From: Hymenobacter sp.
GTDB lineage: Bacteria; Bacteroidota; Bacteroidia; Cytophagales; Hymenobacteraceae
Length of the DNA: 33,717 nucleotides
NCBI GenBank assembly: GCA_025354605.1
Contig: JANXMN010000270.1
Location: 1-33,717 of the forward strand
Direction of reading: 5' to 3'
A model generated the notes under the pieces. It ran no database searches and was not told where the DNA came from. It saw only the letters and a list, made by a program, of their open reading frames with translations. The translations under genes were made by a program, and so were the position numbers. This document shows, one piece after another, positions 8,820 through 28,762 of the stretch (positions within the stretch are counted from its first letter, which is position 1; every line of letters starts with the position of its first letter).

Positions 8820-8858
8820 GTAGCGCAGGAGCAGCGCCGACTACGAAGTCCGCGCTAC
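8820..8858. repeat. REP-like inverted repeat with AAGTCCGCGC core
   Basis: GTAGCGC (8820-8826) pairs with GCGCTAC (8852-8858), with an inner GACT-ACGA-AGTC hairpin. The stop codon of the 8855-10741 gene (CTA on the plus strand) lies inside it. A related hairpin with GAGTCCGCGC is at 33658-33680. Confidence 0.5.
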
Positions 8859-12961: not shown

Positions 12962-15541
12962 ATGAAATTCCTTGCTCCGTTGCTCCTGGTGTGCCTGTTG
13001 GCGCTGCCAGCCGCGGCCCAGCGTATCGTTATTAGTGGTCAGGTGGTGGAAGCTGCCAACGGCGAGCCGGTGCCGTTTGCGTCCCTCTTCGTGCCTAAAA
13101 CCAGCTTCGGCGTCACGGCCGACGTGGAGGGCAAGTTCAAGCTGGCCATTTCCGGCCCGGCCGATTCCATCGCGGTATCGGCCATTGGCTTTGCCACCCA
13201 GCGCCGCAAGCTCACCGACGCGCCCACCCAGTCGATTTTGTTCCGGATGAAAGCCGGGGGCGTAACGCTAGGCGAGGTGTTCGTGAGCTCGCGCCAGCCC
13301 GAAAACCCGGCCTTCCGCATTCTGCGCGAGGTGCAGAAGCACAAGCCTGAAAACGCCCGCCTCACCCTCAAGGCCGCCGAGTACGACTCCTACAACCGCA
13401 TCGAAACCAGCCTGATGAACCTGCCGGCCGCCCTCAACCGGCGCAAGGCCGTGCGCGACATCCGGGCGCTGGCCGTGCGCCAAGGGGCCGCCAGTGCTTC
13501 CGACCCCGACGCCCCGCTGCCCATTTTCGCCTCCGAAGTAGGCTCGCGGGTGTACCAGCGCAACAACCCACTACGCCGCCGCGAAGATTTGCTGCACAAG
13601 CAGATGCGTGGCGTAGGCCCACGCGAGGGCTCGGTCCTGAGCCAGATGCTGGGCTCCAACTTCCAAAACTTCGACTTCAACCCCAACTGGCAGAACGTGC
13701 TGGGCAAGGACTTCATCTCGCCCATTGCCGAGGGTGGCCGCGGCACCTACGACTATGAGCTGCAGGATTCGGTATTCGTGGGCAAGGACTACTGCTACAA
13801 AATCGCCGTCACGCCCAAGCGCAGCCACGACCTGGCCTTCAAGGGAACCATCTGGATTACCAGCGAGAGCTATGCCCTGCGCCGTGCCGACCTCGTGGCC
13901 AGCCCCGAAGCCAACATCAACTTTGTGGACGACCTGCGCATTGCCCAGGAGCTGACCTCGCCGCAGGATGGTCCGGGCCTGCCCATCCGCACCAAGCTGC
14001 TTATCAGCGTGCGGCCCTCTGAGAAGCAGGCCGCTATGCTCATTCGCTACACCACCGTGGCCAGCAACTTCGTGCGCAACCAGCTCCACGGCGAGGCCGG
14101 CTTCTACGACCAGCCCATCGTGTCGTCGCTAATGGAACCGGTTACCGATTCCCCGGCTGGGGGCCTGCTCAGCGGCCTGCCCCAGGGCGGGGCCGGCGGC
14201 TACTTCGACGCTCACCGCCCCGACACGCTGAGCCTGAGCGAGCGCCAGAACTTCGCCGTGCTCGACTCGGCCAAGTCGCTGCCCTCGGTGCGCAACCTGC
14301 TCGACTGGGTCGACCTGTTCGTGAACGGCTACAAGCGCGTGGGCAAGCTCGACATTGGTCCCATCGTCGGTCTCTACGCCCACAACGACTTTGAGGGCGA
14401 CCGCCTGCGCTTTGGCTTTCGGACCACCCCGCTCATCAGCCGCGACTGGCTGACCCAGGGCTACGTGGCCTACGGCACCAAGGACGGACGTTTTAAATAC
14501 GGTATACGCGAGAGCTACATCGCCGAGCGGCGCCACTGGACGGTGTTCTCAGCCGAGTTCAAGCACGATGTGGAGCAGTCGGCCCTGCTCGACAACGACT
14601 TCCTCGACAACAACAGCTTGTTTTCGACGGCTTCGAGATGGGGCCGCTGGAAGCAGCGGTTTGTCGACGATGACCCCAACAAACTGCCCCTGCCGGGTGG
14701 CCCTGTGCTGCGCGACCTAGCCTCGCTGAGCGTGCAGCGCGACCTGTTTCACGGCTTTACCCAAACCATGACGGCTCGCTACCAGAGCATCAACCGCCTC
14801 TACGAGCATCCCAACTCAATGCCGGTGAACGAGAAGCAGCGGCCCAACACACTGCATCTGAGCGAGCTGGTATTCGAGTCGCGCTATGCTCCCGACGAAA
14901 CCTTGGTGCAGAGCGAGAACCGCCGCCGCGCCGTCGGTCTGAAGCGCCTGCCCGTGTTTGGGTTTCGCTATACGCTGGGCGTGCTCTCGCGCAACCGCAG
15001 CACCACCTACCACAAGTTCAATCTGTCGGTGACGCACAGCTTATCGGTGGGTTACCTGGGCCGACTCAACTATCGGGTCGAGGGCAGCTACATTCCCACC
15101 GCCTTGCCGTCGCTCATCCTGAAAGCCCCGCTGGGCAACCAGACGCCATTCTACAATGTCAATGCGTTCAACCTGATGAACTATTTTGAGTTTGTGACGG
15201 ACCGCTCGGTGTCGCTGCGCCTCGACCAGCACTTTGAAGGCTTGCTGCTGAATGCCATTCCGGTTATCCGCAAGCTGAACTGGCGCCTGGTGGGCACGGC
15301 GAACATTCTGTACGGCGAGCTGTCGGAGAATGCGCGCGATGCCAATGGCAACGCACCCGAACTGGGCAGCATTCACGAGCCTTATGTAGAAGCCGGCTAC
15401 GGGGTCGAAAACATCTTCAAGTTTCTGCGGGTCGACTTCATCCACCGCCTCACCTACCGCGACCAGCTACCGGACAGATTCTCGAATGCCCCCGACCACA
15501 GCAACTTCGGCATCAAGTTCAGCGCCCAGTTCCGTCTGTAG
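12962..15541 (+). CDS. DUF5686 outer-membrane protein with carboxypeptidase-like regulatory domain
   Basis: 859 aa. The ATG at 12962 begins a signal peptide (MKFLAPLLLVCLLALPAAAQ). Residues 21-105 form a carboxypeptidase-D regulatory-like beta-sandwich (ISGQVVEAANGEPVPFASL, then SAIGFATQRRKL), as in many TonB-dependent and surface proteins of Bacteroidota. The rest matches DUF5686: an N-terminal part (FRILREVQKHKPENARLTLK, YDSYNRIETSL) and a C-terminal region of alternating strands ending in FGIKFSAQFRL, typical of an outer-membrane barrel. The family is widespread in Bacteroidota with no settled function; a role in outer-membrane or surface maintenance is a guess. It is a single gene with its own terminator. 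Confidence 0.88.
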   Translation: MKFLAPLLLVCLLALPAAAQRIVISGQVVEAANGEPVPFASLFVPKTSFGVTADVEGKFKLAISGPADSIAVSAIGFATQRRKLTDAPTQSILFRMKAGGVTLGEVFVSSRQPENPAFRILREVQKHKPENARLTLKAAEYDSYNRIETSLMNLPAALNRRKAVRDIRALAVRQGAASASDPDAPLPIFASEVGSRVYQRNNPLRRREDLLHKQMRGVGPREGSVLSQMLGSNFQNFDFNPNWQNVLGKDFISPIAEGGRGTYDYELQDSVFVGKDYCYKIAVTPKRSHDLAFKGTIWITSESYALRRADLVASPEANINFVDDLRIAQELTSPQDGPGLPIRTKLLISVRPSEKQAAMLIRYTTVASNFVRNQLHGEAGFYDQPIVSSLMEPVTDSPAGGLLSGLPQGGAGGYFDAHRPDTLSLSERQNFAVLDSAKSLPSVRNLLDWVDLFVNGYKRVGKLDIGPIVGLYAHNDFEGDRLRFGFRTTPLISRDWLTQGYVAYGTKDGRFKYGIRESYIAERRHWTVFSAEFKHDVEQSALLDNDFLDNNSLFSTASRWGRWKQRFVDDDPNKLPLPGGPVLRDLASLSVQRDLFHGFTQTMTARYQSINRLYEHPNSMPVNEKQRPNTLHLSELVFESRYAPDETLVQSENRRRAVGLKRLPVFGFRYTLGVLSRNRSTTYHKFNLSVTHSLSVGYLGRLNYRVEGSYIPTALPSLILKAPLGNQTPFYNVNAFNLMNYFEFVTDRSVSLRLDQHFEGLLLNAIPVIRKLNWRLVGTANILYGELSENARDANGNAPELGSIHEPYVEAGYGVENIFKFLRVDFIHRLTYRDQLPDRFSNAPDHSNFGIKFSAQFRL

Positions 15542-15568
15542 GTAAGTGAATGCTCACCAATCTAGGAG

Positions 15569-15599
15569 GTCCTTCCTGGCATTTGCCGGAAGGACTTTC
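15569..15599 (+). terminator. Rho-independent terminator after the DUF5686 gene
   Basis: GTCCTTCCTGGC, an ATTT loop, then GCCGGAAGGAC followed by TTTC. One unpaired T interrupts the stem. Confidence 0.75.
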
Positions 15600-15600
15600 G

Positions 15601-15608
15601 TATTTTAG
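15601..15608 (+). promoter_or_regulatory. -7-like element TATTTTAG before the sensor-zinc ribbon gene
   Basis: It matches TAnnTTTG at 7 of 8 positions, eight bases before the ATG at 15617 and directly after the previous terminator. It suggests an independent, nearly leaderless transcript. Confidence 0.35.
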
Positions 15609-15616
15609 GCCCATCC

Positions 15617-17695
15617 ATGAGGTTCGTTTACTTTTTTTGCGCTGAAAAAATAGGCAGCCGTTGCCCTGCCACCAGGCAACGGGTGGCCCTACGCCCGGCC
15701 CGCCGCCCGGTAGTGACCTGGCTGCTGGCTCTGCTGCTGGCCCTGCTGGCCGGCCCCGCCCGCGCTGCGGCCACGCCCGAGGACACCCTGGCCGTGCGCC
15801 CCGGCCTGGCCGAGCTCTACCTGGACGACAACTTTTACAGCGTGCTGGAAGACCCTACTGGCAGCCTCACGCTGGCTCAGGTGCAGAGCCCCGCCTGGGC
15901 CGGCCGCTTCCGGCGGCTGCGGGGCTCGGGGCAGCTGCCCAATATTCAGCATCCGCGCAGTGCCTATTGGCTGCGCCTGACGGTGCGCCACGCCGCCATC
16001 GAAACCGACGCCTGGTACCTGGAGCTATACGACTCGCACATTGGGCAGGCCGTGTTCTTTCGGCCCCGGCCGGGCAGCGCCACGGCCTACGACAGCGTGG
16101 CCACCGGGGCCACCCGCTCGTTCAGCACCCGGCCGCATCCCTACAAAAACTTCCTGTTCGACCTGCCGCCCCGGCCGGGCCAGACGGTGACGTACTACCT
16201 GCGGCTGCATTCCGACACCAAAACCAGCTTCCGGGCCATGGTGCACAGCGGGGCCGGACTGATTCCGGAACTGTCGGTGCAGTATTGGCTGCTGGGTATT
16301 TTCTACGGCATCCTGCTCATCATGGTGCTGTACAACCTCATCTTGTACTTCTTTCTGCAGGAGCGCACCTACTTCTACTATGTGCTCTATGTGCTGAGCG
16401 GGGCGCTGCTGTTTTTGTCGGAAGACGGGCTGGGATTTCAGTACCTGTGGCCCGCGTTTCCGCGATTCAACCATTTCATCAGCGCGGCGGCTCCGGTGTT
16501 GCTGCTACTCACGTTTGGCACCTACGCCAGCCGCTTTCTGGACACCGCTTCGCGCATGCCGGGGGTGCACCGGGCCGGGCGTTGGGTGCTGGGCGGCAGC
16601 GCGGCCTTGCTGGTGCTCGATGCGGCCGTGGTGCACTCGGGCTTCAGCTTCTGGCTGTACCTATTGCCCTACGGCCTGCTGTATTACATCGGCTGGCAGG
16701 CTTGGCGCACGGGGCTGCGCCCGGCCCGCTACCTGCTACTGGCCCAGGCGCTGGTGGCCGTGAGCCTGATTTTTCTGATTACCCGCAAGCTGGGCCTCAA
16801 CTTTTACAACAATGCCTACACGGTGTACAGCCTGAACGCGGCCTTCGTGCTCGAAGTCGTAATACTGAGCTACGCCCTCGGGGAGAAGCTCAAGGGCCTG
16901 ATGGACCTGACGCTGCTCTCGCAGCAACGCCTGCTGAAGCAGCTGCGCAAGAAGCACCAGGCCCAGGAGCGCCTAGTGGAGCAGATGGGCGAGAACCAGC
17001 GCCTGAAAGACCAGCTTAACACCGAGCTGGAAGCCCAAGTGGCCGCCCGCACCGCCGAGCTGCGCCAGCAGCACGAAACCGTAGCCGCCCGCAACCGGGA
17101 ACTCTTGGAGGCCAACGGCTTGCTGGCCCTGCAGTCGGATGCCATTGCCAAGCTGAACCAGGAGCTGAGCCAGGACCTGCACGATGAAAAAGCCGCCCGT
17201 ATCGAAGCCCGCGAGGTCGACTTCGGCGAGTTCAGCCAGATTTACCCCGACAAGGATGCCTGCTTGCGCTACTTGGCCGACCTGAAGTGGGCCACCCACC
17301 TTTACCGCTGCCGCAAGTGCGGCCACGAGAAAAGCTGCGAGGCCCGCGAGCCCTACGCCCGCCGCTGCACCCGCTGCCGCTACGTGGAGTCGGCCACGAC
17401 CGGCACGCTGCTGCAAAAGGTTAAGTTCTCGATTGTGAAGGCGTTGTACGCCGTGTTTCTGCTGCATGCGCACCGGGGCAACTACTCGCCGGCCGAGCTG
17501 GCCCGGGTGCTTGACCTGCGCCCGGCCACCAGCTGGGCCTTTGCTCAGAAGGTGCTGGCCGCGTTGCAGCGTCGGCGCCTGGCCTCCGACCACGAGGAGG
17601 GAGAAGCCTGGACCCATGTCCTGCTCGATGCCACGGCCGAAAGTGAGGCAGTAGTGCTGGAAGAGGCCGGTGATACGGCCGATATGGAGGATTAA
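15617..17695 (+). CDS. 7TMR-DISM membrane sensor fused to an IS1595-transposase-like zinc ribbon/HTH
   Basis: 692 aa. A basic N-terminus (1-31) precedes a signal segment (TWLLALLLALLAGPARA, 34-50). Residues 55-215 are a 7TMR-DISMED2-type periplasmic jelly roll (SAYWLRLTVRHAAI, WYLELYDSHI). Residues 222-422 hold about seven membrane segments (LLGIFYGILLIMVLYNLIL and others). Residues 425-532 are a long coiled coil. The end is unusual: YPDKDACLRYLADLKW (543-558), a zinc ribbon with C565/C568 and C584/C587, TTGTLLQK (594-601), an HTH-like segment (YSPAELARVLDLRPATSW, 623-640), and VLLDATAESE (668-677). This order matches the N-terminal DNA-binding part of IS1595/ISXO2-type transposases, which begin their DDE domain with VEVDET-like residues, but the catalytic domain is absent. 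I infer a membrane-bound sensor with a recruited transposase DNA-binding head. It lies directly upstream of the glucan locus. Confidence 0.85.
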   Translation: MRFVYFFCAEKIGSRCPATRQRVALRPARRPVVTWLLALLLALLAGPARAAATPEDTLAVRPGLAELYLDDNFYSVLEDPTGSLTLAQVQSPAWAGRFRRLRGSGQLPNIQHPRSAYWLRLTVRHAAIETDAWYLELYDSHIGQAVFFRPRPGSATAYDSVATGATRSFSTRPHPYKNFLFDLPPRPGQTVTYYLRLHSDTKTSFRAMVHSGAGLIPELSVQYWLLGIFYGILLIMVLYNLILYFFLQERTYFYYVLYVLSGALLFLSEDGLGFQYLWPAFPRFNHFISAAAPVLLLLTFGTYASRFLDTASRMPGVHRAGRWVLGGSAALLVLDAAVVHSGFSFWLYLLPYGLLYYIGWQAWRTGLRPARYLLLAQALVAVSLIFLITRKLGLNFYNNAYTVYSLNAAFVLEVVILSYALGEKLKGLMDLTLLSQQRLLKQLRKKHQAQERLVEQMGENQRLKDQLNTELEAQVAARTAELRQQHETVAARNRELLEANGLLALQSDAIAKLNQELSQDLHDEKAARIEAREVDFGEFSQIYPDKDACLRYLADLKWATHLYRCRKCGHEKSCEAREPYARRCTRCRYVESATTGTLLQKVKFSIVKALYAVFLLHAHRGNYSPAELARVLDLRPATSWAFAQKVLAALQRRRLASDHEEGEAWTHVLLDATAESEAVVLEEAGDTADMED

Positions 17696-17817
17696 GCACC
17701 GCTTTAACGCTACTTGCCCGCCGGCAACGTTTGCGGAATTTACTGCCTTCTTCTAGCAGGTGCTGACAACTATTTGATGAAGTAAGCCGGACCAGCCACT
17801 AGCACGAACCGCAATGC

Positions 17818-17848
17818 CCGATTTTTTTTCAAAATCGGACTTTTTTTT
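17818..17848 (+). terminator. Rho-independent terminator after the sensor gene
   Basis: CCGATTTT, a TTTTC loop, then AAAATCGG, followed after two bases by eight T residues. It separates the sensor transcript from the GH3 promoter. Confidence 0.75.
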
Positions 17849-18004
17849 CGTTGTTTTTTAGCCTACTGCCCGAAAACTCTTAAACCAGCAATCCATTGCG
17901 CAAAGCATATATCGCCTATGCCCGGCGTGTGCGGCAAGCGTAACACGCCACTCACAAGGCAAGCCACAAAAGCTCATTTCCAGCCAATAGGACAAGTTTT
18001 TAGC
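17849..18004. other. AT-richer regulatory region upstream of the GH3 gene
   Basis: The gene-free stretch runs from 17696 to 18060 and includes the terminator. This part is AT-rich for the window. It contains a perfect palindrome TTGCGCAA (17896-17903) and an inverted repeat GGCGTGT-N12-ACACGCC (17924-17949), both 55-110 bp upstream of the promoter at 18005. They are the best candidates for binding sites of a PUL regulator. No gene is seen. Confidence 0.45.
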
Positions 18005-18036
18005 TTGCATTTACTCAACACGAGCATATACATTTG
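18005..18036 (+). promoter_or_regulatory. Bacteroidota-type promoter of the GH3 gene
   Basis: TTG at 18005-18007 and TACATTTG at 18029-18036 are separated by 21 bp. The second matches the -7 consensus TAnnTTTG at every fixed position. Transcription would start near 18041-18043, which rules out the TTG at 18034 as the start codon and favours GTG at 18061. Confidence 0.7.
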
Positions 18037-18060
18037 GGCCTCACCTCCCACCTGAACGCT

Positions 18061-20541
18061 GTGTTTGACCTGCTTCCTGCTTCCGGAGCAACCCAACGGA
18101 ACGACTCCCGCGCAAACTGGCGGACCGCCGTTTCAATCTCCGGCTGCCTGCTTCTGACCGCTGCGCTGCTGACGACCTGCCAGCGCGCAAGCGTACCCAC
18201 GGCCACCACCGCGATGGCCGCCCCTGTTACTGTCCTGGCTCCGCTGGCGACCACCGAAGCCCTGCCCGTAGCCGACTTCAGCCCCCGCGTGCGGCAGCTG
18301 CTGGCCCAGATGACGCTGGAAGAAAAAATCGGGCAGATGACCCAACTGGCTAACACGGCCATCAACCCCTCGGGTGTGCAAAAAGATGTGGCGCTCGACT
18401 CGGCTAAGGTGGCCGGGCTGGTGCGCGATTTTCACATCGGCTCGTTTCTGAACGGAGAGGCCGTGCCAGCGGCGCAGTGGGTGCGCTACTCGGCCCAGCT
18501 CCAGCGCATTGCCCTGCGCGAGTCGCGGCTGCACATTCCCATCATCTACGGCATCGACCACATGCACGGGGCCAGCTACGTGAGCGGCACTGCCATCTTC
18601 CCGCACAACATTAACCTTGGGGCCACCTTCAACCCCGAGCTGGCCCGGCAGATGGCCCGCGCCACCATTCTGGAGTCGGCCGACCTGGGCCACCATTGGG
18701 TGTTTGCCCCGGTGCTCGATTTGGGCGTGAACGTATACTGGCCCCGCTTCTACGAAACCTACGGCGAGGACCCGCTGGTAGCAGCCACCCTGGGCGCAGC
18801 CTTTATAAAGGAGCTGCAGGGCAACACCGAGATTGCACCCTACAAAGTAGCGGCCTGCGGCAAGCACTTTTTGGGCTACTCGGACCCGCGCAACGGCTGG
18901 GACCGCACCAACGCCCTTATTCCGGACCAGCGCCTGCAAGAGTTCTTTCGACCACCGTTTCAGGCGGCCATCGATGCCGGGCTGAAGACGGTCATGGTGA
19001 ACTCGGGCGAAATCAACGGCGAGCCGGTACACGCCTCCAAGGCCATTCTGACGGACTTGCTGCGTCGGCAGATGGGGTTCAAGGGCGTAGCCGTGACCGA
19101 TTGGGAAGACATTATTCGGCTGGTGCGCATTCAGAAAGTGGCGGCCAACGAGAAGGAAGCCACCTGGATGGCCATCGACGCGGGCGTGGACATAGCCATG
19201 ACGCCCTACACCACCACCTTCTGCCGCTTGGTAAAGGAGCTGGTGCAGGAGGGCCGCCTCACGCCAGCCCGCATCGAGCTATCGGCCGGCCGGGTGCTGC
19301 AGATGAAGGACGATATCGGTCTTTTTGACAACCCTATGCCCCGGGCCGACCGCCTGAGCCGCATCGGCGACCCCGCCCTGCGCGCCCAGGCCACCGAAGC
19401 CGCCCGCCAATCCGCGGTGCTGCTGAAAAACGACAAGAACACTCTGCCCTTGGCCCCGGCCCGCGTGAAGCACCTGCTGGTGGTGGGCCCTTCGGCCGAC
19501 TCGCGCGCCAACCTCTGCGGAGGCTGGACGCTGGCCTGGCAGGGCCGCCCCGAAGCCGCCTACCCCACCGACGTGCCCACCCTGCTCGAAGCCCTGCGCC
19601 GCGAGTACCCGCAGGCCATGGTGGAAACCCTGCCCTACTACAGCGCCGCCGGTAAACTCGCGCTTGGCCCCATTGCGGCCGCCGCCCGCCGGGCCGATGC
19701 CGTGGTGCTGGCCCTGGGTGAGCGCCCCTACACCGAGGGGATGGGCAACACCTCGGACCTGACCCTGGCCGACGACCAGCAACAGTTGGTGCGTGCGGCC
19801 CAGGCCAGCGGCCGGCCCACGGTGCTGCTCCTGATTGGCGGACGGCCCAACATCATCCGGCCGGTGGCCGAGGCTTCATCGGCCATTATCTGGGCGGGGC
19901 TGCCGGGCTACGGCGGTGGCACGGCCCTAGCCGAAATCATCAGCGGGAAAACCAACCCCAGCGGCAAGCTGCCCTTTACCTACCCGCAGTTTGCCGGCCA
20001 CATCACCAACTACCACCACGACAACAACGAGAACAGCCTCGATTTGAGCGACTTCGGCGCGGGCTTCGAGCGGCGCGGCACCAAGTACAAGAGCTCGATG
20101 CTGACGGAGTTTGGCGAGGGCCTGAGCTACACCACTTACGCCTACTCGGGCCTGAGCCTGAGCGACTCGGTGCTGACCAGCCCCACCAACCGCCTGCGGG
20201 CCACGGTGCGCGTGGCCAACACCGGTTCCCGGGCCGGGCAGGAAGCCGTGCTCTGGTTCATCACCGACGAGGTGGGCCGCATCACGCGGCCGGTGCGCCA
20301 GCTGCGCCACTTCGAGAAGCAGGCGCTGGCCGCCGGCCAAAGCCACGAATTCGCCTTCGACATCGACCCGCGCCGCGACCTGACTTACCCCGATGGCCGC
20401 GGCAACCCGCAGCTGGAGCCGGGCTGGTTCACGCTGCGCGTGGGCTCGCAGGCGGTGCGCTTTCGCTACGCGGGCGCGCCGCTGGCCCAGGCCGATACGG
20501 CGGCACCCGGCAGCACCGGGGCCGTGCTACCGGCCCGCTAA
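18061..20541 (+). CDS. Glycoside hydrolase family 3 beta-glucosidase, lipoprotein
   Basis: 826 aa from the GTG at 18061. The frame is open to a TTG at 18034, but that codon lies inside the promoter. SGCLLLTAALLTTC ends in a lipobox with C40, so the enzyme is probably a lipoprotein. Residues 75-410 are the GH3 TIM barrel: EEKIGQMTQL, YGIDHMHGA, GKHFLGY (267-273) and GVAVTDWED with the expected nucleophile D347. Residues 420-640 are the C-terminal alpha/beta sandwich (SAVLLKNDKNTLPL, LALGERPYTEG), and the last 100 are an FnIII-like domain (TVRVANTGSRAGQEAV). GH3 enzymes remove terminal beta-linked glucose. As the first gene of the locus, 72 bp before susC, it should finish the breakdown of imported or periplasmic beta-gluco-oligosaccharides. 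Confidence 0.92.
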   Translation: MFDLLPASGATQRNDSRANWRTAVSISGCLLLTAALLTTCQRASVPTATTAMAAPVTVLAPLATTEALPVADFSPRVRQLLAQMTLEEKIGQMTQLANTAINPSGVQKDVALDSAKVAGLVRDFHIGSFLNGEAVPAAQWVRYSAQLQRIALRESRLHIPIIYGIDHMHGASYVSGTAIFPHNINLGATFNPELARQMARATILESADLGHHWVFAPVLDLGVNVYWPRFYETYGEDPLVAATLGAAFIKELQGNTEIAPYKVAACGKHFLGYSDPRNGWDRTNALIPDQRLQEFFRPPFQAAIDAGLKTVMVNSGEINGEPVHASKAILTDLLRRQMGFKGVAVTDWEDIIRLVRIQKVAANEKEATWMAIDAGVDIAMTPYTTTFCRLVKELVQEGRLTPARIELSAGRVLQMKDDIGLFDNPMPRADRLSRIGDPALRAQATEAARQSAVLLKNDKNTLPLAPARVKHLLVVGPSADSRANLCGGWTLAWQGRPEAAYPTDVPTLLEALRREYPQAMVETLPYYSAAGKLALGPIAAAARRADAVVLALGERPYTEGMGNTSDLTLADDQQQLVRAAQASGRPTVLLLIGGRPNIIRPVAEASSAIIWAGLPGYGGGTALAEIISGKTNPSGKLPFTYPQFAGHITNYHHDNNENSLDLSDFGAGFERRGTKYKSSMLTEFGEGLSYTTYAYSGLSLSDSVLTSPTNRLRATVRVANTGSRAGQEAVLWFITDEVGRITRPVRQLRHFEKQALAAGQSHEFAFDIDPRRDLTYPDGRGNPQLEPGWFTLRVGSQAVRFRYAGAPLAQADTAAPGSTGAVLPAR

Positions 20542-20613: not shown

Positions 20614-23600
20614 ATGAAGCAAACTGTTTACTTTCTAACGCTGCTTCGCAGCACGGCCGTGCTGCTGGCCTGCAGCCTGCCCGCGCTGGCCAGCGCGACC
20701 CCGGCCGCCCCGGGCGCGCCGGTGCTAGCCCGCCTCCTGGCCGACGTGCCCGTGAGCGGCCGCATAACCGGCCCCGACGGTACCGGCCTGCCCGGCGTGA
20801 CGGTGCTGGTGCAGGGCACCAGCCTAGGCACCACCACCAACTCCGACGGCCAGTTCACCCTGAATGCGCCCGAGGGCAGCAAACTGGTGTTCAGCTTCAT
20901 CGGTTACGCCACGCAAACAGTGCCGGTAACGGCTGGCATGGCCGCCCTGACCATCAGCCTGCGCGAAGACGCCAAGCAGCTGAACGAGATAGTGGTGGTG
21001 GGCTATGGCACCCAGGAACGCGGGAGCGTGACGGGCGCTATCTCGTCGGTAGCGGCCCAGGAAATTGTGCGCCAGCCGGTGGCCGATGTCACGCAGGCCA
21101 TTCAGGGCAAGGTGGCGGGCGTCACCATCACCTCGAACGGCGGAGCGCCGGGCGGGGCGGCAGGCACGTCGGTGCGGGTGCGGGGGATTACCTCCGATGG
21201 CAACAACAACCCGCTGTACGTGGTGGATGGCTTCCCGCTGCCCGACGGCGGCGACAACCAACTGAACGCCATTAGCCCGAACGACATCGAGACGATTGAT
21301 ATTCTGAAGGATGCCTCAGCTACTGCCATCTACGGGGTACGGGCCGCCAACGGCGTCGTCATCATCACCACCAAGCGCGGCAAGGCGGGCAAAACCACCC
21401 TCAACCTCGACGGCTACCGCGGTATTCAGAGCGTTGCGCGCAAGCTCAACATGCTCAATGCCCAGGAGTATGCGGTTATCAACAACGAGAGCCGGCTGGC
21501 AGCCGGCAAGCCGGTGGCCCTGGATAAGCTGCGCAACCCCGCCGCCCTGGGCGAGGGCACCGACTGGCAGGACCTGCTGTTCCGCCGCGCCGCCATGCAG
21601 AACTACTCGCTCTCGGCTACGGGTGGCACCGAAAAGTCGCGCTTTGCCATTTCGGGCACCTACTTCCAGCAGGACGGTATCATTCTGGGCAGCGATTTTG
21701 AGCGCTTCACGCTGCGCGCCAACGGCGACGTGCAGGTGAACCGCGTGTTTAAGATGGGCAGCAGCATTGCCCTCACCCACCTGAGCGACCGGCAGGTGCC
21801 TACCAACGGCGGCGAGTACGGGGCCGTGCAGCAGCTGCTGCGCATGCCCCCGACGGTAGTGCCCTACCGCCCCGATGGCTACTACTACCAGCCCAATACC
21901 GACAACGACAACTTCACGGAGGAAAACCCGCTGGCGACCACCCAGCGCGTGAACCAGCGCTTCACCCGCAACCGCGCCCTCACCACCGTGTTTGCCGAGC
22001 TGGAGCCCCTCAAGGGCCTGCGCTTCCGCACCAACGTGGGGGCCGATTTCATCTTCGACAACTTCAACAGCTTCGCCCCCAAGGCCACCGAGCTGGCGGG
22101 CTACGATACCCGCCCCCTCTACCTCAAGGCGGCGGCCTCGGCCACGTCGAGCTACGCGCCCAGCTACCTGATTGAGAACACCGGCACCTACGACCGCCTG
22201 TTCGCGGGCAAGCACCAGGTAACGCTGCTGGTGGGCCAGTCGGCCCAGCAGTTCAACTACAGCAACGTGGAAGCCTACCGCAACAATTTCCTGCGCAACG
22301 ACCTGCAGGTAATTAACGCCGGCCCCACTGCCACCACCGACGAGTATGGCAACGCCGGCACCATCGACACGCCGCGCCGTCTGGCCAGCTACTTCAGCCG
22401 CCTCAACTACGAGTTTGGCGGCAAATACCTCTTCCAGGCCACGGCCCGCTACGACGGCTCGTCGCGCTTTCAGCCGGGCTCGAAGTTCGGCTTCTTTCCG
22501 AGTGCTTCGGTGGGCTGGCGCGTCTCGGAGGAGGACTTCCTGCGGGGCAGCAGCACCGTGAGCAACCTGAAGGTGCGGGCCGGCTACGGCCGCGTGGGCA
22601 ACGAGTTGAATGCCGGCCGCTACGCCTACCTCTACGCTATCAATTTCGGCATTGCCTACCCCTTCGGCCCCAACGGCACCCTGAATACCGGGGGTGCTCC
22701 CACCCGCCTAGCCAACCCCGACCTGCGCTGGGAATACAACGACCAGGCCAACCTGGGTATCGACCTGGGCCTGTTCAACAACCGCGTGGAGGCCAGCATC
22801 GACTTCTATAACCGCAACTCGCCCAACCTGATTGCGCCGGTGCCCCCGTCGCTGGTGTCGGGCACGTTCGAGCCGGTGAAGTCGAACGCGGCCTCGGCCT
22901 ACAACCGCGGCATCGACCTGTCGGTGACGACTCACAACTACACCGGCGCCGGCACGAGCCTGAGCTGGTCGACCACCCTGAACATGTCGGCCTACAAAAC
23001 CCGGCTGTCGTCCCTGAGCTCGGGCACGCCCTACAACGGCACTATCTACCTCAGCGGCAACGTGGTGCGCTACGATGTGAATCGGGCGTTCGGCTCGTTC
23101 TACGGCTACGTGGCCGATGGCCTGATTCAGACCCAGGAGGAGCTCAATGCCCTCAACGCCGGTGCCCCGAAGGATGCTTCCGGCAAGCCGCAGCCCTACC
23201 AGGCAACCGACACCGGCCCCGGCGACATCAAGTTCCGGGACGTGAACGGCGACGGGCGCATCACGGCCGACGACCGCACCTTCATCGGCAACCCCAACCC
23301 GAACTTCACCTTTGGTCTCACCAACACGCTGTCGATGAAGAACTTCGACCTGAGCTTCTTCATTCAGGGCGTGCAGGGCAACGACGTGTACAACCTGAAC
23401 CGCTACATCACCGAGAATGCCCTCTACGGCACCACCAACGGTACCACCCGCATTCTGGGCCGCTGGACCGGCCCCGGCACCAGCAACGACGTGCCGCGCG
23501 CCATCAACGGCGACCCCAACAACAACCTGCGGGTATCGAGCCACTACGTGGAGGATGGCTCCTACGTGCGCCTGAAGAACCTGACCCTGGGCTACACCCT

Positions 23601-23781
23601 GCCCCAAAGCTTGCTGAGCCGGATTTCGGCCGCGCAAATCCGCTTCTACGTCACGGCCCAGAACCTCTACACTCTCACCAAATACACGGGCTACGACCCG
23701 GAGGTGAGCGCCAGCGGCGTCGACCTGGGTATTTACCCGCAGTCGCGCGTGTTCATCGGCGGCCTCAACATCGGGTTCTAA
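20614..23781 (+). CDS. SusC/RagA-family TonB-linked outer-membrane transporter
   Basis: 1055 aa, ATG at 20614. A signal peptide (about 1-28, ending SLPALASA) is followed by a carboxypeptidase-D regulatory-like domain (47-118: VSGRITGPDGTGLPGVTVLV, FSFIGYATQ). Next come the TonB-box-like segment and plug (122-260: LNEIVVVGYGTQERGSVTGA, VRVRGI, PLYVVDGFP, ATAIYGVRAANGVVIITTKR). The remainder is the 22-stranded barrel, with the usual PDLRWE, GDIKFRDVNGDG and TLGYTLP motifs near the end. It imports oligosaccharides with SusD as the lid and energy from TonB-ExbBD. It sits between the GH3 gene (72-bp gap) and susD (28-bp gap). No stress or frameshift sign is seen. Confidence 0.96.
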   Translation: MKQTVYFLTLLRSTAVLLACSLPALASATPAAPGAPVLARLLADVPVSGRITGPDGTGLPGVTVLVQGTSLGTTTNSDGQFTLNAPEGSKLVFSFIGYATQTVPVTAGMAALTISLREDAKQLNEIVVVGYGTQERGSVTGAISSVAAQEIVRQPVADVTQAIQGKVAGVTITSNGGAPGGAAGTSVRVRGITSDGNNNPLYVVDGFPLPDGGDNQLNAISPNDIETIDILKDASATAIYGVRAANGVVIITTKRGKAGKTTLNLDGYRGIQSVARKLNMLNAQEYAVINNESRLAAGKPVALDKLRNPAALGEGTDWQDLLFRRAAMQNYSLSATGGTEKSRFAISGTYFQQDGIILGSDFERFTLRANGDVQVNRVFKMGSSIALTHLSDRQVPTNGGEYGAVQQLLRMPPTVVPYRPDGYYYQPNTDNDNFTEENPLATTQRVNQRFTRNRALTTVFAELEPLKGLRFRTNVGADFIFDNFNSFAPKATELAGYDTRPLYLKAAASATSSYAPSYLIENTGTYDRLFAGKHQVTLLVGQSAQQFNYSNVEAYRNNFLRNDLQVINAGPTATTDEYGNAGTIDTPRRLASYFSRLNYEFGGKYLFQATARYDGSSRFQPGSKFGFFPSASVGWRVSEEDFLRGSSTVSNLKVRAGYGRVGNELNAGRYAYLYAINFGIAYPFGPNGTLNTGGAPTRLANPDLRWEYNDQANLGIDLGLFNNRVEASIDFYNRNSPNLIAPVPPSLVSGTFEPVKSNAASAYNRGIDLSVTTHNYTGAGTSLSWSTTLNMSAYKTRLSSLSSGTPYNGTIYLSGNVVRYDVNRAFGSFYGYVADGLIQTQEELNALNAGAPKDASGKPQPYQATDTGPGDIKFRDVNGDGRITADDRTFIGNPNPNFTFGLTNTLSMKNFDLSFFIQGVQGNDVYNLNRYITENALYGTTNGTTRILGRWTGPGTSNDVPRAINGDPNNNLRVSSHYVEDGSYVRLKNLTLGYTLPQSLLSRISAAQIRFYVTAQNLYTLTKYTGYDPEVSASGVDLGIYPQSRVFIGGLNIGF

Positions 23782-23809: not shown

Positions 23810-25366
23810 ATGAATATCTCTAAATCGATTCTCCGCGGCGCTTTCCTGCTCTCGCTGGGGCTGCTGGGCAGCTGCGGCGAGAAGTTTCTGGCCGAAGCCC
23901 CCGCCGACCAGATTACCGACGCCAACTTTTACCAGACCGAGAGCGACGCCGTGCAGGCCGTGACAGCCGCCTACAGCGAGCTGGCCAAGGGCGGGCAGTA
24001 CAATGCCGCCCTCTGGGCCATGGACATCATGGCCGACATTTCGGTGACCGGCGGCGACGACGGCGGCGACGGCCTGGAATACAAGCAGCTCGAAGCTTTC
24101 AGCATTCCGCCCACCAACAAAGTGGCCAACCTGATGTGGGGTGGCTGTTTCGTGGGCATTCAGCGCGCCAACCTGGTGCTGCAGAAAGTGCCCGGCATCA
24201 CCAACATTTCGTCGTCGGTGAAACGGCGCTGCCTGGGCGAGGCCCAGTTTCTGCGCGCCAAATACTACTTCGACCTGGTGCGGACCTACGGCGACGTGCC
24301 CCTGTTCACGACCCCGCCCACCGGCCCGGCGGCCGTGAACATTCCGCGCACGCCGGCCACGCAGGTGTACGTGCAGATTGAAAAAGACCTGACCGACGCC
24401 ATCGCCAACCTCGACCCCGTGTACAGTGGCAACGACCTGGGCCGCGCCACCAAGTGGTCGGCCACGGGCCTGCTGGCCAAGGTGTACCTCACCGAGGGCA
24501 AGAAGACCGAAGCCGCCCAGCGCGCCGGCGAGGTGATTGCCAACTCGGGCAAATCGCTGTGGGCCAACTACGGCGACAACTTTAAAATCGAGAACGAGAA
24601 CGGCAAGGAGTCGCTGTTCGAGGTGCAGTTTATCAGCGGCAAGAACTTCGAAAACTTTGGCTACACCCAGAACGGCCCTGGCTTTGCCGGCAACGAGTTT
24701 TTCGGGCCGCGCGGCGCCAACCAAACGCCGGGCAGCGGCTACGGCTTCAACATTCCGGAGCCCGATTTCGTGAGCGGCTACGAAGCCGGCGACACCCGCC
24801 GGGCGGCCACCGTGATTGAGCCCGGCTACGTGTTTTCGGACAACAAGACGCAGTCGCCTTCCGCCACGGGCTCGCCCTTTGGCTACAACTGCCGCAAGTG
24901 GTTTATCGGCAAGGTGAACACCAACATTTGGGACTCGGGCCTGAACATTCCGGTGCTGCGCCTGGCCGAGATATACCTGATTCGGGCCGAAGCCGTGGGG
25001 CCGACCGGCGGCCCGAACGGCGGCCTGGAGTCGCTCAACATGGTGCGGCGCCGGGCCTTTGGCCTGCCTCTGGGCACGCCCTCGGCCAAGGATGTGACCA
25101 CCCCCGACCCCAACGCCTTCCAGCAGGCCGTGATTCGGGAGCGCAAGTACGAGCTGGCCTTCGAGTTCGACCGCTGGTTCGACCTGAAGCGCCTGAATGG
25201 CACGCCCATGGGCCTGATTCCGGTGATGACGAACCAGGCCGCCTACCTGGCCGGGCTGGGCAAGGGCATCAACCGGGGCGTGCCCAGCGCCCGCAACCTG
25301 GTGCTGCCCATTCCGCAATCGGAGCTGGATGCCAACCCCGGCCTGGTGCAGAACCCCGGCTACTAG
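23810..25366 (+). CDS. SusD/RagB-family surface lipoprotein
   Basis: 518 aa, ATG at 23810. The signal peptide ends in LLGSC with lipidated C22. The N-terminal SusD-like part (KFLAEAPADQITDANFYQTE, DAVQAVTAAYSEL) and TPR-like helices (LGEAQFLRAKYYFDLVRTYG) are typical. So are the C-terminal IYLIRAEAVG, RERKYELAFEFDRWFDLKR and the final IPQSELDANPGLVQNPGY. SusD proteins bind glycan at the surface and cap the SusC barrel. It is coupled to susC by a 28-bp gap and followed by a PKD lipoprotein after 39 bp. Glycan choice cannot be read from sequence and is inferred from the GH16 and GH3 neighbours. Confidence 0.96.
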   Translation: MNISKSILRGAFLLSLGLLGSCGEKFLAEAPADQITDANFYQTESDAVQAVTAAYSELAKGGQYNAALWAMDIMADISVTGGDDGGDGLEYKQLEAFSIPPTNKVANLMWGGCFVGIQRANLVLQKVPGITNISSSVKRRCLGEAQFLRAKYYFDLVRTYGDVPLFTTPPTGPAAVNIPRTPATQVYVQIEKDLTDAIANLDPVYSGNDLGRATKWSATGLLAKVYLTEGKKTEAAQRAGEVIANSGKSLWANYGDNFKIENENGKESLFEVQFISGKNFENFGYTQNGPGFAGNEFFGPRGANQTPGSGYGFNIPEPDFVSGYEAGDTRRAATVIEPGYVFSDNKTQSPSATGSPFGYNCRKWFIGKVNTNIWDSGLNIPVLRLAEIYLIRAEAVGPTGGPNGGLESLNMVRRRAFGLPLGTPSAKDVTTPDPNAFQQAVIRERKYELAFEFDRWFDLKRLNGTPMGLIPVMTNQAAYLAGLGKGINRGVPSARNLVLPIPQSELDANPGLVQNPGY

Positions 25367-25405: not shown

Positions 25406-26677
25406 ATGAAATTATTTGTTCGCGCGGCAACCCTGGCGTTGCTCTCCCTGCCCCTCGTGCTGGCTTCGTGCAAGAAGCCGGGCGACGACACCGCCCTGGA
25501 AGGCGCGGTGCCCACGGCCAGCTTCACGGCCACCGTCGATGCCTCGCAGTTTCCAATCCGGGTTTCGTTCGCCAACCAAACCACCGATGCCTACTATTAC
25601 CAGTGGGATTTCGGCGACCAAACCAGCTCGTCGGCCAAAGCGCCCAGCCACACCTACCAGCGCGGCGGCACCTACACCGTGAAGCTGACCACGGCCGGCC
25701 GCGGCGGCACCACCACCACTCAGAAGGACGTGGTCATTCCCTCGGCCTGCACTTTCGCCGGCTTCGCGGCCCTGACGGGCAACTGCACCAGTGGGGCGTG
25801 GACGCTGACGAGCCAGCCCGATGCCATTGTGCGCCTCGCCGCCAATGGCACCACGGTGCTGAGCACGCTGCCGGGTGCCACCGGCTCGCTGCCGGCCTGC
25901 CAGGCCGACGATGAGTTCAGCTTCGCCGATAACTACACCTACAAGTACGACGCGGGTGGGGCCAGCGGCCAGACCTATTCGGGCGGTGCCTGCGGCCCCG
26001 CCCGCAACCCCAGCTCGAGCTTCGTTTATAAGCCCACCAGCGGCCTGGGCCAAATTATGCTGCTGGCCAACCGCTCGTTTATTGGCCTCACCGACTCGGT
26101 GGTGAACAAAACCTACGACATTCTGGAAGCCAGCACCACCCGCCTGCGCCTGCGCGGCACCAACCCCGACGGCACCTTCACGGTGGTGACCTACTCGCCG
26201 CAGGTATCGGCGGTGGAGCGGGCCCGCCTGCTGCTCACCGGCGGCTCGACCCGCACCTGGAAGCTCGATAACAGCGTGGCCGCCGCCATTGTGGTAGGCC
26301 CCAGCGATGCCGACCCCACTGGCTACTACGCCGGTGGCACCGCCGGTAGCCTGCCGGCCTGCCAGGCCGACGACGAATTCACCTTCACGACGGCCAACGT
26401 GTACCAGTACAACGCCCTGGCCGAAACCTTCGTGGCCGGCGGCGGCGGCTGCCAGGCCCCGCGCTCGGTATCGACCGGTTTCACGTTTGGCGCGGCGGCC
26501 GGGGCGGGGCTGGCCCAGTTCACGCTGGCTGCCGCCACCCCCGCGCCCTTCATCGGCGTGACCGATGCCCCCGACCGCGTGTACCGCATTCTGAGCATCG
26601 ACAACCAGCACATGCTGCTGCGCGCCGGCAGCTCGACGGCGGCGCTGGTGTTCACGATGAAGCTGGTGGTGAAATAA
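25406..26677 (+). CDS. PKD-domain lipoprotein with two lipocalin-like modules, putative surface glycan-binding protein
   Basis: 423 aa, ATG at 25406. The lipobox VLASC gives C22. Residues 35-112 are a PKD domain (YYYQWDFGDQTSSS, HTYQRGGTYTVKL). Residues about 128-265 and 283-423 are two related modules. Each contains SLPACQADDEF, a second paired Cys region (GGACGPAR; GGGCQAPR), an FIGLTD/FIGVTD strand, and a Y-D/R-IL turn, resembling lipocalin-like or SusE/F-position domains. The conserved Cys pairs suggest disulphides. Placed right after susD, it is most likely the surface glycan-binding protein of the locus. No catalytic residues are recognised. A hairpin follows its stop and may reduce expression of downstream genes. 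Confidence 0.85.
   Translation: MKLFVRAATLALLSLPLVLASCKKPGDDTALEGAVPTASFTATVDASQFPIRVSFANQTTDAYYYQWDFGDQTSSSAKAPSHTYQRGGTYTVKLTTAGRGGTTTTQKDVVIPSACTFAGFAALTGNCTSGAWTLTSQPDAIVRLAANGTTVLSTLPGATGSLPACQADDEFSFADNYTYKYDAGGASGQTYSGGACGPARNPSSSFVYKPTSGLGQIMLLANRSFIGLTDSVVNKTYDILEASTTRLRLRGTNPDGTFTVVTYSPQVSAVERARLLLTGGSTRTWKLDNSVAAAIVVGPSDADPTGYYAGGTAGSLPACQADDEFTFTTANVYQYNALAETFVAGGGGCQAPRSVSTGFTFGAAAGAGLAQFTLAAATPAPFIGVTDAPDRVYRILSIDNQHMLLRAGSSTAALVFTMKLVVK
25889..26373 (+). repeat. 23-bp identical direct repeat inside the PKD lipoprotein gene
   Basis: CTGCCGGCCTGCCAGGCCGA plus CGA occurs at 25889-25911 and 26351-26373. It encodes the shared LPACQADDE of the two modules and marks an internal duplication. 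Confidence 0.6.
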
Positions 26678-26713
26678 AGCGTGTGAGGCACGGCCTCGAG
26701 AGGTGCGCAAAAA

Positions 26714-26748
26714 GCGCGTCATGCTTCCCCGTTTTTAGCATGGCGCGC
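26714..26748 (+). terminator. Hairpin between PKD and GH16 genes (attenuator or repeat)
   Basis: GCGCGTCATGCT (26714-26725) pairs with AGCATGGCGCGC (26737-26748) with one mismatch across an 11-base loop containing five T residues. There is no T run after the stem, so it may stabilise mRNA or be an intergenic repeat rather than a strict terminator. Confidence 0.5.
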
Positions 26749-26806
26749 CTTTCACCCAATCGGCCGAACAGCCGGGTTGATTCCCGCTCGAATTATCTGA
26801 CTGCAA

Positions 26807-26814
26807 TACTTTTT
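26807..26814 (+). promoter_or_regulatory. -7-like element TACTTTTT before the first GH16 gene
   Basis: It matches TAnnTTTG at 7 of 8 positions and ends nine bases before the ATG at 26824, in an AT-rich stretch after the hairpin. A TTG at 26777 is the nearest -33 candidate, but the spacing (27 bp) is long. The GH16 gene may have its own promoter. Confidence 0.35.
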
Positions 26815-26823
26815 ACTGCTGAT

Positions 26824-27702
26824 ATGAAAAATCTCCTCACCACTATTGCCCGCCGCCGAGCGGCCGTTGGCTTGCTACTGGCACTGAGCCTGGCCAGCTG
26901 CACCGAAAAGAAATCAACCCTGACCCCCGCCCCAACCGGTCCCGCAGCACCCGAGGTGAATGTCGAGGCGCGCAACTACGCCGACTACACCGAGCTGGTG
27001 TGGGCCGACGAATTTGCCGGCAGCGCCATCGACCCTGCCAAGTGGGGTTTCGACTTGGGTAACAACAACGGCTGGGGCAACCAGGAGCTGGAATACTACA
27101 CCAACTCGCCCGACAATGCCTACGTGAGCAACGGCAGCCTGGTCATTCAGGCCAAGCAGCAGGCCCTGAGCGGCTTCAACTACACCTCAGCCCGCATGCT
27201 CACCAAGGGCAAGCAGAACTTCAAGTTCGGCCGCCTCGACGTGCGCGCCAAGCTACCGCGCGGGCAGGGCATCTGGCCCGCCATCTGGCTGCTGGGCAGC
27301 GACATCGATTCCAACAACTGGCCCAAGTGCGGCGAAATCGACATCATGGAGCTGCGCGGGCAGGAGCCCAATAAAATCCTGACCACGATGCACTTCCCCA
27401 AAAACGACGGCAGCCACGACCAGAAGGGCAGCCCCGACCAAGTGCTAAGCAGCGGCACCTTCGCCGACGACTTCCACGTGTTCAGCGTGGTGCGCAGCAA
27501 GGACCAGATGCGCTTCTTCCTCGATGGCAACCTGTACTACACCTTCACGTCGGGCGATGCGCCCAACTTCCCCATCAACAACCCCTTCTTCGTGATTCTG
27601 AACGTGGCCGTGGGCGGCAATTTCCTGGGCAACCCCAACGCCACCACCGTCTTCCCGCAGCAGATGCAGGTGGACTACGTGCACTACCTCCAGTACAAGT
27701 AA
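26824..27702 (+). CDS. Glycoside hydrolase family 16 endo-beta-glucanase (laminarinase type), lipoprotein
   Basis: 292 aa. The ATG at 26824 is chosen because it directly precedes the signal peptide, which ends in LSLASC (C26). The GH16 jelly roll starts at ELVWADEF (57-64) and includes WGNQELEYYT (84-93), RLDVRAKLPRGQGIWPAIWL (137-156) and the active site GEIDIMEL (170-177). E171 is the nucleophile and E176 the acid/base, in the beta-bulge form ExDxxE used by laminarinases and lichenases. NVAVGGNFLG and MQVDYVHYLQY close the domain. The expected reaction is internal hydrolysis of beta-1,3- or beta-1,3-1,4-glucan, at the cell surface given the lipobox followed by an acidic/Lys stretch. No extra binding module is present. 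Subfamily and linkage choice need alignment. Confidence 0.94.
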   Translation: MKNLLTTIARRRAAVGLLLALSLASCTEKKSTLTPAPTGPAAPEVNVEARNYADYTELVWADEFAGSAIDPAKWGFDLGNNNGWGNQELEYYTNSPDNAYVSNGSLVIQAKQQALSGFNYTSARMLTKGKQNFKFGRLDVRAKLPRGQGIWPAIWLLGSDIDSNNWPKCGEIDIMELRGQEPNKILTTMHFPKNDGSHDQKGSPDQVLSSGTFADDFHVFSVVRSKDQMRFFLDGNLYYTFTSGDAPNFPINNPFFVILNVAVGGNFLGNPNATTVFPQQMQVDYVHYLQYK

Positions 27703-27943: not shown

Positions 27944-28762
27944 ATGCTTTCAACGCTACTCTCGGGCCTGCTGCTGCTGGGCTGGCTGCCCAGCCCGGCG
28001 GCGGCCGCGCCGCGCCACAGCTTCGGCAAGCTGGCCTGGAGCGACGAGTTCAACTACACCGGCCTGCCCGACTCGGCCCGGTGGACCTACGACGTGGGCG
28101 GCAGCGGCTGGGGCAACCAGGAGCTGCAGTACTACACCAAAAAGCGGCGCGAAAATGCCCGCGTCGAAAACGGCAACCTCGTGCTGGAGGCCCGCAAAGA
28201 GGCCCTGATGGCCGGCAATGCCTACACCTCGGCCCGGCTGGTGTCGCGCGGGCCGGGTGGCAGCCAGACCTACGGCCGCTTCGAGATTCGGGCCCGGATT
28301 CCGGGTGGGCGCGGCACCTGGCCCGCCATCTGGATGCTGCCCGACAAGAACCCCTACGGCGACCACGGCTGGCCCGACAACGGCGAAATCGACATCATGG
28401 AGCACGTGGGCTACGACCCCAACGTGGTTCATGCCACCACCCACTGCAAGGCCTACTACTTCCGCATCAACACCCAGAAAACGGGCATCACCAAGCTGCC
28501 CGACGCCACCACGGCCTTCCACGTGTACTCGGTGGAATGGACGCCCGAAACCATCACGGCCGAGATTGACGGGCAGGTGTACTTCGCTCACCGCAACGAG
28601 GGCACCGGCTGGGAAACCTAGCCCTGGAACCAGCCCTTCCACCTGCTGCTCAACATTGCCGTGGGTGGCGAATGGGGCGGCAAGCAGGGCATCGACGAGG
28701 CCGCCTTCCCTCAGCAAATGCTGGTAGACTACGTGCGCTTTTACCCTTTGATAAAGAGTTAG
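27944..28762 (+). pseudogene. Second GH16 glucanase, interrupted by an in-frame TAG
   Basis: An ATG at 27944 starts a signal peptide (MLSTLLSGLLLLGWLPSPAA) and a full GH16 domain: LAWSDEFNYTG, WGNQELQYYT, RFEIRARIPGGRGTWPAIWM and active site NGEIDIMEH with E148, D150 and E153. After GTGWET (residue 225) the codon 28619-28621 is TAG. The same frame then continues for 46 codons with PWNQPFHLLLNIAVGG and MLVDYVRFYPL to a TAG at 28760-28762. GH16 proteins normally have Trp here (ETWPF/W), so a single G-to-A change at 28620 (TGG to TAG) explains the break. The truncated protein would lose the last core strands and probably not fold. The active site is intact, so the change looks recent, unless it is a sequencing error or the stop is read through. 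The intact product would be 272 aa, secreted and not lipidated. Confidence 0.85.

Follow-up and report, generated by a model that had tools for sequence, protein, structure and literature searches.

Receptors of the 7TMR-DISM type customarily signal through kinases, cyclases, phosphatases and the like. In Bacteroides, the control of polysaccharide utilization loci (PULs) has been described by way of SusR-like, hybrid two-component (HTCS) and extracytoplasmic function (ECF) systems (PMC3878776), and a PUL of Chitinophaga pinensis comes with an ECF/anti-sigma pair (PMC10449523). From Proteobacteria, finally, a ChiS-family DNA-binding domain is reported that is fused C-terminally to 7TMR-DISM (PMC8092284). 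The protein considered here is encoded on a stretch of 33,717 nucleotides from Hymenobacter sp. (contig JANXMN010000270.1), which is referred to as the window. In this protein a 7TMR-DISM receptor is followed by a zinc ribbon and a helix-turn-helix (HTH) of the IS1595 transposase type. Judged from its sequence and its setting, it is very probably a membrane-embedded one-component regulator of PUL transcription with a domesticated transposase head.

The open reading frame (ORF; all coordinates in Table 1) encodes 692 amino acids, and its translation agrees with the earlier description. The order of domains is a 7TMR-DISMED2 jelly roll, seven transmembrane helices, a coiled coil, an IS1595-type zinc ribbon and an HTH. 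The receptor part, which an initial annotation made from the letters alone had proposed, is borne out by Pfam matches to 7TMR-DISMED2 (E 1.9e-26, 93.1 bits against a cut-off of 22) and 7TMR-DISM_7TM (E 1.4e-39, 136.6 bits against a curated cut-off of 29) and by an AlphaFold model computed from a 62-sequence alignment (mean pLDDT 81.6, pTM 0.59). In this model the periplasmic part consists of strands and is followed by the membrane helices, a single long helix (399-515) and, as the structure prediction of the head, a three-helix HTH (606-656, with helices at 606-618, 625-632 and 636-656); pLDDT is below 50 at 499-529, between coil and head, and at 678-692. Foldseek with the full-length model placed the RetS periplasmic domain first (E 2.9e-7, 3jyb, and 7.2e-7), followed by three Wntless chains (E 8e-6 to 2e-4).

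The head, too, has the predicted order of elements and matches the IS1595 family in profile searches. Zn_ribbon_IS1595 (PF12760) scored 23.1 bits (E 7.5e-5), below its cut-off of 25.4, in an hmmscan of the whole protein and 28.1 bits, above that cut-off, on the same stretch in a six-frame search of the genome. The NCBIfam model of IS1595 transposases, NF033547, aligns to amino acids 602-656 through no more than its positions 2-57, out of 215 (E 2.5e-4; 21 bits, cut-off 75). The four cysteines of the CxxC-N15-CxxC motif are invariant in 62 of 62 aligned relatives, as are N468, L471, V475, R478, T479, N514 and L517 in the coiled-coil linker. The absence of the DDE nuclease is confirmed, in that NF033547 stops at position 57, stays below 75 bits, and the Pfam scan of the 692-aa protein gave no match to PF12762. 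The further suggestion that a VLLDAT segment is a remnant of the first nuclease strand finds no support: the profile match ends at 656, the last residues belong to the low-confidence stretch 678-692, and the only invariant residue of the tail beyond the match is W665. No match at E<=0.1 was found in the protein to histidine kinase, receiver or AraC domains in Pfam, nor to Sigma-70 or FecR-like domains in Pfam or NCBIfam.

Of the 150 genomes of the window's family, 64 (58 of them in its genus) encode full-length homologues (E<=1e-60), and the sensor is single-copy in 63 of these 64; at least eight genomes of the genus have no homologue. Searched with an alignment of the head at E<=1e-12, 115 of the order's 291 genomes had matches, as many as 14 in a single genome. 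In named genomes (Chitinophaga, Mucilaginibacter, Pedobacter and others) the alignment picked out 244 stretches; a contig scan of the named genomes with the full-length protein recovered no relative. The domain pair was thus looked for in other Bacteroidota and found: DISMED2, 7TM and head lie on one chain in each of 106 relative loci, among them L132 within a complete chromosome, and in 39 of 40 additional loci, L233 being missed by the purpose-built 7TM profile (L denotes loci, G genomes and f families). These loci comprise 20 sensor loci of the 64-genome search (L035-L054; L006-L034 were left out as too short for context), the best 79 of the 244 named-genome stretches (L123-L201) and loci chosen for long open frames (L085-L091, L202-L241). 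Because they were picked by head match or long frame, the counts demonstrate co-occurrence and not a receptor on every head; heads also occur in transposase-like and short ORFs. In the 62-member alignment both 7TMR-DISM models are matched by 62 of 62 (7TM at E<=0.001), PF12760 by 46 at E<=0.001 and NF033547 by all 62 at E<=0.01, with the matched positions of NF033547 checked for the window's protein only; no NCBIfam model specific to this architecture was among the matches. Between the window's gene and 14 close homologues, dN/dS is 0.25 in DISMED2, 0.13 in 7TM, 0.14 in the coil, 0.10 in the zinc ribbon and 0.07 in the HTH. Purifying selection is therefore strongest in the HTH, followed by the zinc ribbon. 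The sensor family is widespread across one phylum, Bacteroidota. Some sensor genes also come in pairs: those of L206 and L207 (f2) are divergent, separated by 175 and 195 bp, and L238 has a tandem pair.

The proposal of a transposase head domesticated on a receptor gains from this wide conservation and from the profiles, and further from the similarity of the head to ORFs of the IS1595 type and from a tree. A profile of the head strongly matches IS1595-type ORFs of 263-337 codons (E down to 1.5e-45). Of eight transposase-like ORFs in relatives, every one matches NF033547 (E 5e-59 to 2e-16), as far as position 152-215, and six exceed its 75-bit cut-off; the DDE domain PF12762 is recognised in seven (E<=0.001). 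In the head tree, 58 fusions cluster with one standalone head and one cut row (support 94/88; row L126_S169 is truncated by the edge of its locus), and a larger group around the fusions also takes in five transposase-like rows (support 98/94). As the tree comprises 71 of 149 heads after thinning of the fusions, 135 columns and eight transposase rows, and is rooted at the midpoint, it supports, without proving, a single capture of the transposase head by the receptor. Around the gene itself, 16 pairs of inverted repeats of at least 14 nt lie within 15000-18300, and only one spans the whole gene. This 15-nt pair (15389-15403 with 18265-18279) falls inside the two flanking ORFs, and we read it as chance rather than as the terminal inverted repeats of an insertion sequence (IS). 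No further PF12760 match above cut-off was found in the six-frame search of the window's own assembly.

Some relatives of the head outside the sensors deserve mention in their own right. G310 has eleven IS1595-like ORFs of 306-337 codons. In three of its loci (L092, L093, L094) the sequence differs at the presumed positions of the first two catalytic aspartates (VEIMPCELG and IRTTGW are examples), and the PF12762 match begins only at profile position 32-37; these ORFs are possibly nuclease-dead, multicopy transposase-derived proteins. A blastn comparison of L092 with L093 and L094 delimited no IS ends. ORFs of 151-203 codons in L095 (G308) and in L103 and L104 (f7 genomes) match the head profile with zinc ribbon and HTH; too short for a nuclease, they are possibly further domesticated heads.

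In the window, the sensor gene is followed on the same strand by genes for a glycoside hydrolase of family 3 (GH3), SusC, SusD, a PKD protein and two GH16 enzymes. With its GH3 and two GH16 enzymes this operon, judged by its enzymes, is a beta-glucan PUL. Its SusC is the best of nine SusC genes above cut-off in the genome, and the GH3 enzyme has as its best NCBIfam match an exo-beta-1,3/1,6-glucosidase (430 bits, far under the cut-off of 1330). Among the relatives, with ORFs called by a simple length-based caller, a co-directional SusC gene follows the sensor within three genes in 19 of 21 f1 loci (the window included), 12 of 19 in f2, 6 of 9 in f69 and both loci of f3. In the named loci the same holds for 33 of 79, and for 62 of 79 when SusC, SusD or GH2, GH3, GH5 or GH30 are counted. 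The seven neighbour-cluster representatives that were identified are SusC, GH30, GH5, SusD, PF17251, GH3 and GH2.

Downstream of the sensor lies a candidate operator. The 10-mer AAGCGTATCA was first noticed by eye on reading 17 of the gaps 3' of the sensor. From 107 sensor loci (the window, L035-L054, L085-L091 and L123-L201) we collected 73 target gaps, in which the next gene on the same strand belongs to a SusC, GH30, GH3 or GH2 cluster and the gap plus 60 bp measures 120-1200 bp. In a count of 8-mers AAGCGTAT ranked first, being present in 49 of the 73 target gaps compared with 30 of the 292 remaining gaps in those loci, and forward AAGCGTA occurs in 57 of the 73. The consensus over 11 class-H operator sites reads GtGTG...TAAGCGTA. 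The window also has a match to TAnnTTTG, the -7 promoter consensus (PMC7366714), beginning at 18029, 93 bp past the start of AAGCGTA (17936). Since the listed GH3 start overlaps this candidate box, it is probably miscalled, with the true start further downstream. The distance recurs: in the helix class of the window AAGCGTA is present in 11 of 16 gaps, with TAnnTTTG exactly 93 bp on in nine, and within 200 bp there are 11 pairs of the two motifs, nine at 93 bp and those of L052 at 92 and 58. The distances met most often in class A are 80 (11 pairs), 167, 168 and 81 bp. Double copies of the motif are spaced 86-93 bp. In L142 and L171 the motif stands as an inverted repeat 3' of the sensor (AAGCGTATCATGATACGCTT in L142), unlike the same-direction copies elsewhere.

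Searched genome-wide, AAGCGTA-N86-TAnnTTTG matched 31 times, in 29 of the 71 genomes of the genus, and its reversed control five times. A hand comparison of the sensor and pattern searches places it in 17 of 36 sensor-carrying genomes of the genus; three genomes known to lack the sensor (G108, G110, G144) have no match. The 17 genomes hold 18 matches, of which 12 start 182-261 bp past the end of the sensor match and on its strand, four lie 2-7 kb upstream on the sensor strand and two elsewhere. In gaps other than the target gap, AAGCGTAWY in the reading direction of the gene stands before GH30 (13 of 28 gaps), GH5 (3 of 16) and SusC (3 of 7), and also before the sensor itself (4 of 64) and unassigned genes (3 of 165).

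The operator type, moreover, is associated with the recognition helix. The helix sorts into classes, and over 97 gaps (the target gaps plus some from added loci) the classes tend to go with different sequences. CGTATCA is present in 46 of the 55 class-A gaps (helix RQSTCWxY), where dinucleotide shuffles predict 1.1; for the window's class the figures are 11 of 16 for AAGCGTA (0.5 expected) and none of 16 for CGTATCA; the RQNTCWKF class has TTAAGTGAT in 6 of 8 (0.1 expected) and the helix class of f2 ATGTTTTT in 7 of 11 (0.5 expected). In some cases the association cuts across taxonomy: L054, of the window's own family, has a class-A helix and AAGCGTATCA in its gap, and of the class-A loci of f3, L235 has AAGCGTATCA and L236 CGTATCA in different surroundings. 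G690 carries two sensors of different classes, and the gap of its class-A sensor (L204) contains CGTATCA twice, that of the other (L203) not at all.

The sequence supports the architecture of the protein, its kinship with transposases, its conservation under purifying selection, its neighbourhood, a candidate operator at a fixed distance from a candidate promoter and the association of operator type with helix type. On these grounds we infer DNA binding, dimerisation, activation and the ligand, and propose the following. An oligosaccharide of the target glycan would enter the periplasm and bind the DISMED2 jelly roll, and the seven-helix domain would relay the signal through the coiled coil. 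Paired zinc-ribbon/HTH heads, of IS1595 type with the nuclease lost, would then occupy operators some 100 bp ahead of the start site, and transcription of the GH/SusC/SusD operon would rise, in some genomes together with that of the operon holding the sensor. The position of the operator upstream of the promoter suggests activation rather than repression. With GH3, whose best match is to an exo-beta-1,3/1,6-glucosidase, and two GH16 enzymes in the operon, the ligand in the window is probably a fragment of beta-1,3/1,6-glucan. Both the PUL context and the association with operators make the ligand-controlled DNA binding envisaged by the initial annotation likely.

Several observations weigh against this proposal. 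Foldseek with the head alone returned no significant match (best E 0.98); VIA-align related the head to homeodomain- and AsnC-like HTHs (Z up to 5.4) and to the zinc ribbon of NADH pyrophosphatase (Z 3.7), both in the tool's middling range, and the best hit of a sequence search for solved relatives of the head (E 0.0048 across 21 residues) was not convincing. As for the operators, 16 of the 73 target gaps have no forward AAGCGTA, nine of the 55 class-A loci have no CGTATCA, and the exact spaced pattern is missing from 19 of the 36 sensor-carrying genus genomes. L205 combines a class-V helix with the class-A motif AAGCGTATCA. Being shared with class A, AAGCGTA fails to tell the window's class from the others (p 0.58). 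All p-values are descriptive, since the motif was spotted by eye and a single set of loci served to define both classes and motifs; they carry no correction for relatedness. Elsewhere in the loci AAGCGTAWY is found in none of five GH3 and none of three GH2 gaps. Finally, 14 loci of f66, f70, f61 and f72 have no SusC, SusD, GH2, GH3, GH5 or GH30 within three genes on the same strand, and some of these genomes hold many paralogues. Sensor neighbours in f66 and f70 (L222-L232) include DUF2339, GH18, an outer-membrane efflux protein and a TPR histidine kinase, and PUL control may therefore not be the role of every family member. Genomes with many head matches (up to 14) are found in f66 and f70 (L222-L232) and in G591 and G672; there may be a second range of targets.

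But would the operators be read by the sensor at all? They could be owned by another PUL regulator, with the head serving protein contact (RNA polymerase, dimerisation) or tethering instead of DNA reading. The nine class-A loci without CGTATCA and the 19 genus genomes without the exact spaced pattern fit such an owner, as does the fact that binding of DNA by the head is deduced, and so does the frequency of the bare 10-mer: AAGCGTATCA is found in 119 of 121 f4 genomes, sensor-less ones included, against head matches (E<=1e-20) in 38 of 121, some of them in ORFs of only 162-311 codons. The 10-mer count was consequently given up as a genome-wide marker of the sensor. In two sensor-less genomes (G775, 12 of 12 sites examined; G793, 8 of 8), however, 19 of 20 sites fall inside open frames of at least 150 codons, compared with 14 of the 21 examined (of 26) in G829, which has three sensors and whose other seven sites include one about 185 bp past a sensor head (L275) and two some 3.5 kb ahead of a different head (L279). 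Most of the genome-wide frequency is therefore background from coding sequence. Since, in addition, the operator tracks the helix type also across taxa (L054, L235, L236; L204 as against L203) and dN/dS is lower in the HTH than in the other four domains, we consider a foreign owner unlikely.

Slightly less probable still is that the head is released from the membrane by cleavage upon a signal and acts as a soluble factor. The low-confidence stretch that joins coil and head would offer a site, but N514 and L517 within it are invariant in all 62 relatives, and the representatives of seven neighbour clusters, the only ones scanned, include no protease. Shared descent with transposases might also mean that the head still takes part in transposition, silencing or aiding IS1595-like elements through their ends. 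We think this very improbable, given that the window's assembly holds no other PF12760 match above cut-off, that many family members adjoin PUL genes and that the three transposase-like loci of G310 have no forward AAGCGTA and a single reverse match, in L093. An error of assembly or gene calling, conceivable for a genome in 601 contigs, is ruled out for practical purposes by the full-length homologues in 64 of 150 family genomes and by the same architecture in relative loci, including the complete chromosome of L132; conservation over so many genomes removes the objection. We therefore retain a transmembrane regulator that reads its operators through the captured head as the preferred explanation.

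The features of the window are collected in Table 1. Besides the sensor, the window encodes a second 7TMR-DISM/DISMED2 protein (628 aa, 8855-10741, minus strand), in which no other Pfam match was found at E<=1e-5.

Table 1. Features of the sensor-regulator gene and of the putative operon downstream of it
Feature	Coordinates	Strand	Basis or remark
Sensor-regulator ORF, 692 aa	15617..17695	+	homologues at E<=1e-60 in 64/150 family genomes
Periplasmic 7TMR-DISMED2 jelly roll (aa 74-206)	15836..16234	+	Pfam; Foldseek to RetS 3jyb
7TMR-DISM seven-helix membrane domain (aa 223-423)	16283..16885	+	Pfam; helices in model
Coiled-coil linker (aa 424-530)	16886..17206	+	long helix 399-515 in model; invariant residues
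IS1595-type zinc ribbon (aa 545-589), C565 C568 C584 C587	17249..17383	+	Pfam, six-frame search, alignment
Transposase-type helix-turn-helix (aa 602-656)	17420..17584	+	NF033547 positions 2-57; model helices
Candidate operator GTGTGCGGCAAGCGTA	17927..17942	+	AAGCGTA starts at 17936
Possible weaker half-site AAGCC	17961-17965	+	
Candidate promoter: CTTGCATTTA (-33 region) and TACATTTG (-7 box TAnnTTTG, 18029-18036)	18004..18036	+	
GH3 enzyme	18034..20541	+	Pfam/NCBIfam; listed start TTG at 18034
SusC-type TonB-dependent transporter	20614..23781	+	best SusC match in genome
SusD-type lipoprotein	23810..25366	+	Pfam
PKD-domain protein of PUL	25406..26677	+	Pfam
GH16 enzyme	26683..27702	+	Pfam E 2.7e-21
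GH16 enzyme	27944..28621	+	Pfam E 4.5e-21

Taken as a whole, the data make it probable that these sensors form a widespread class of Bacteroidota PUL regulators that is undescribed in the literature searched: receptors free of a phosphorelay, with an IS1595 head captured once, helix classes that diversified together with their operators, each class reading an operator type of its own, and a fixed distance to TAnnTTTG. Genera such as Chitinophaga, Mucilaginibacter and Pedobacter would then have a candidate extra class of PUL regulator with a candidate promoter code, in which the DNA-binding head of a transposase has been turned into the output of a transmembrane receptor. The association of helix and operator opens a test of how the recognition code of a selfish element came to be re-used, and the operators are ready targets for binding assays and reporters.

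How, then, does this protein differ from the systems already known? Like SusR-type regulators, of which SusR acts on the sus genes, it is a membrane protein with a periplasmic sensor and a cytoplasmic DNA-binding domain; the available descriptions of SusR name neither a 7TMR-DISM nor a transposase head, and the two are set apart here by description and not by sequence. With the HTCS of Bacteroidota it shares the PUL-adjacent role and the sensing of periplasmic oligosaccharides, proposed in our case, but it has no histidine kinase, receiver or AraC domain. RetS-like 7TMR-DISM receptors have the same DISMED2 and 7TM domains, and the periplasmic domain of RetS is the top structural match; the output here, however, is a DNA-binding head. 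IS1595/ISXO2 transposases carry the same zinc ribbon and HTH at their N-terminus, from which our protein differs by the missing DDE nuclease, the fusion to a receptor and the presence of one copy in 63 of 64 genomes. Closest in layout is the ChiS-family fusion, again a 7TMR-DISM receptor with a C-terminal DNA-binding domain. Compared by description, that domain contains a cryptic HTH in place of a zinc ribbon and HTH, and the section of PMC8092284 concerned makes no mention of PULs. The initial annotation knew of no system of this kind, which needs qualification in view of that published fusion and otherwise stands: among the papers listed by full-text literature searches, we saw none linking 7TMR-DISM to a transposase zinc ribbon or to PULs. 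Thus, the fusion of 7TMR-DISM to a DNA-binding domain is already known; new, within the literature searched, are an output derived from a transposase, the role at PULs and the operator code.

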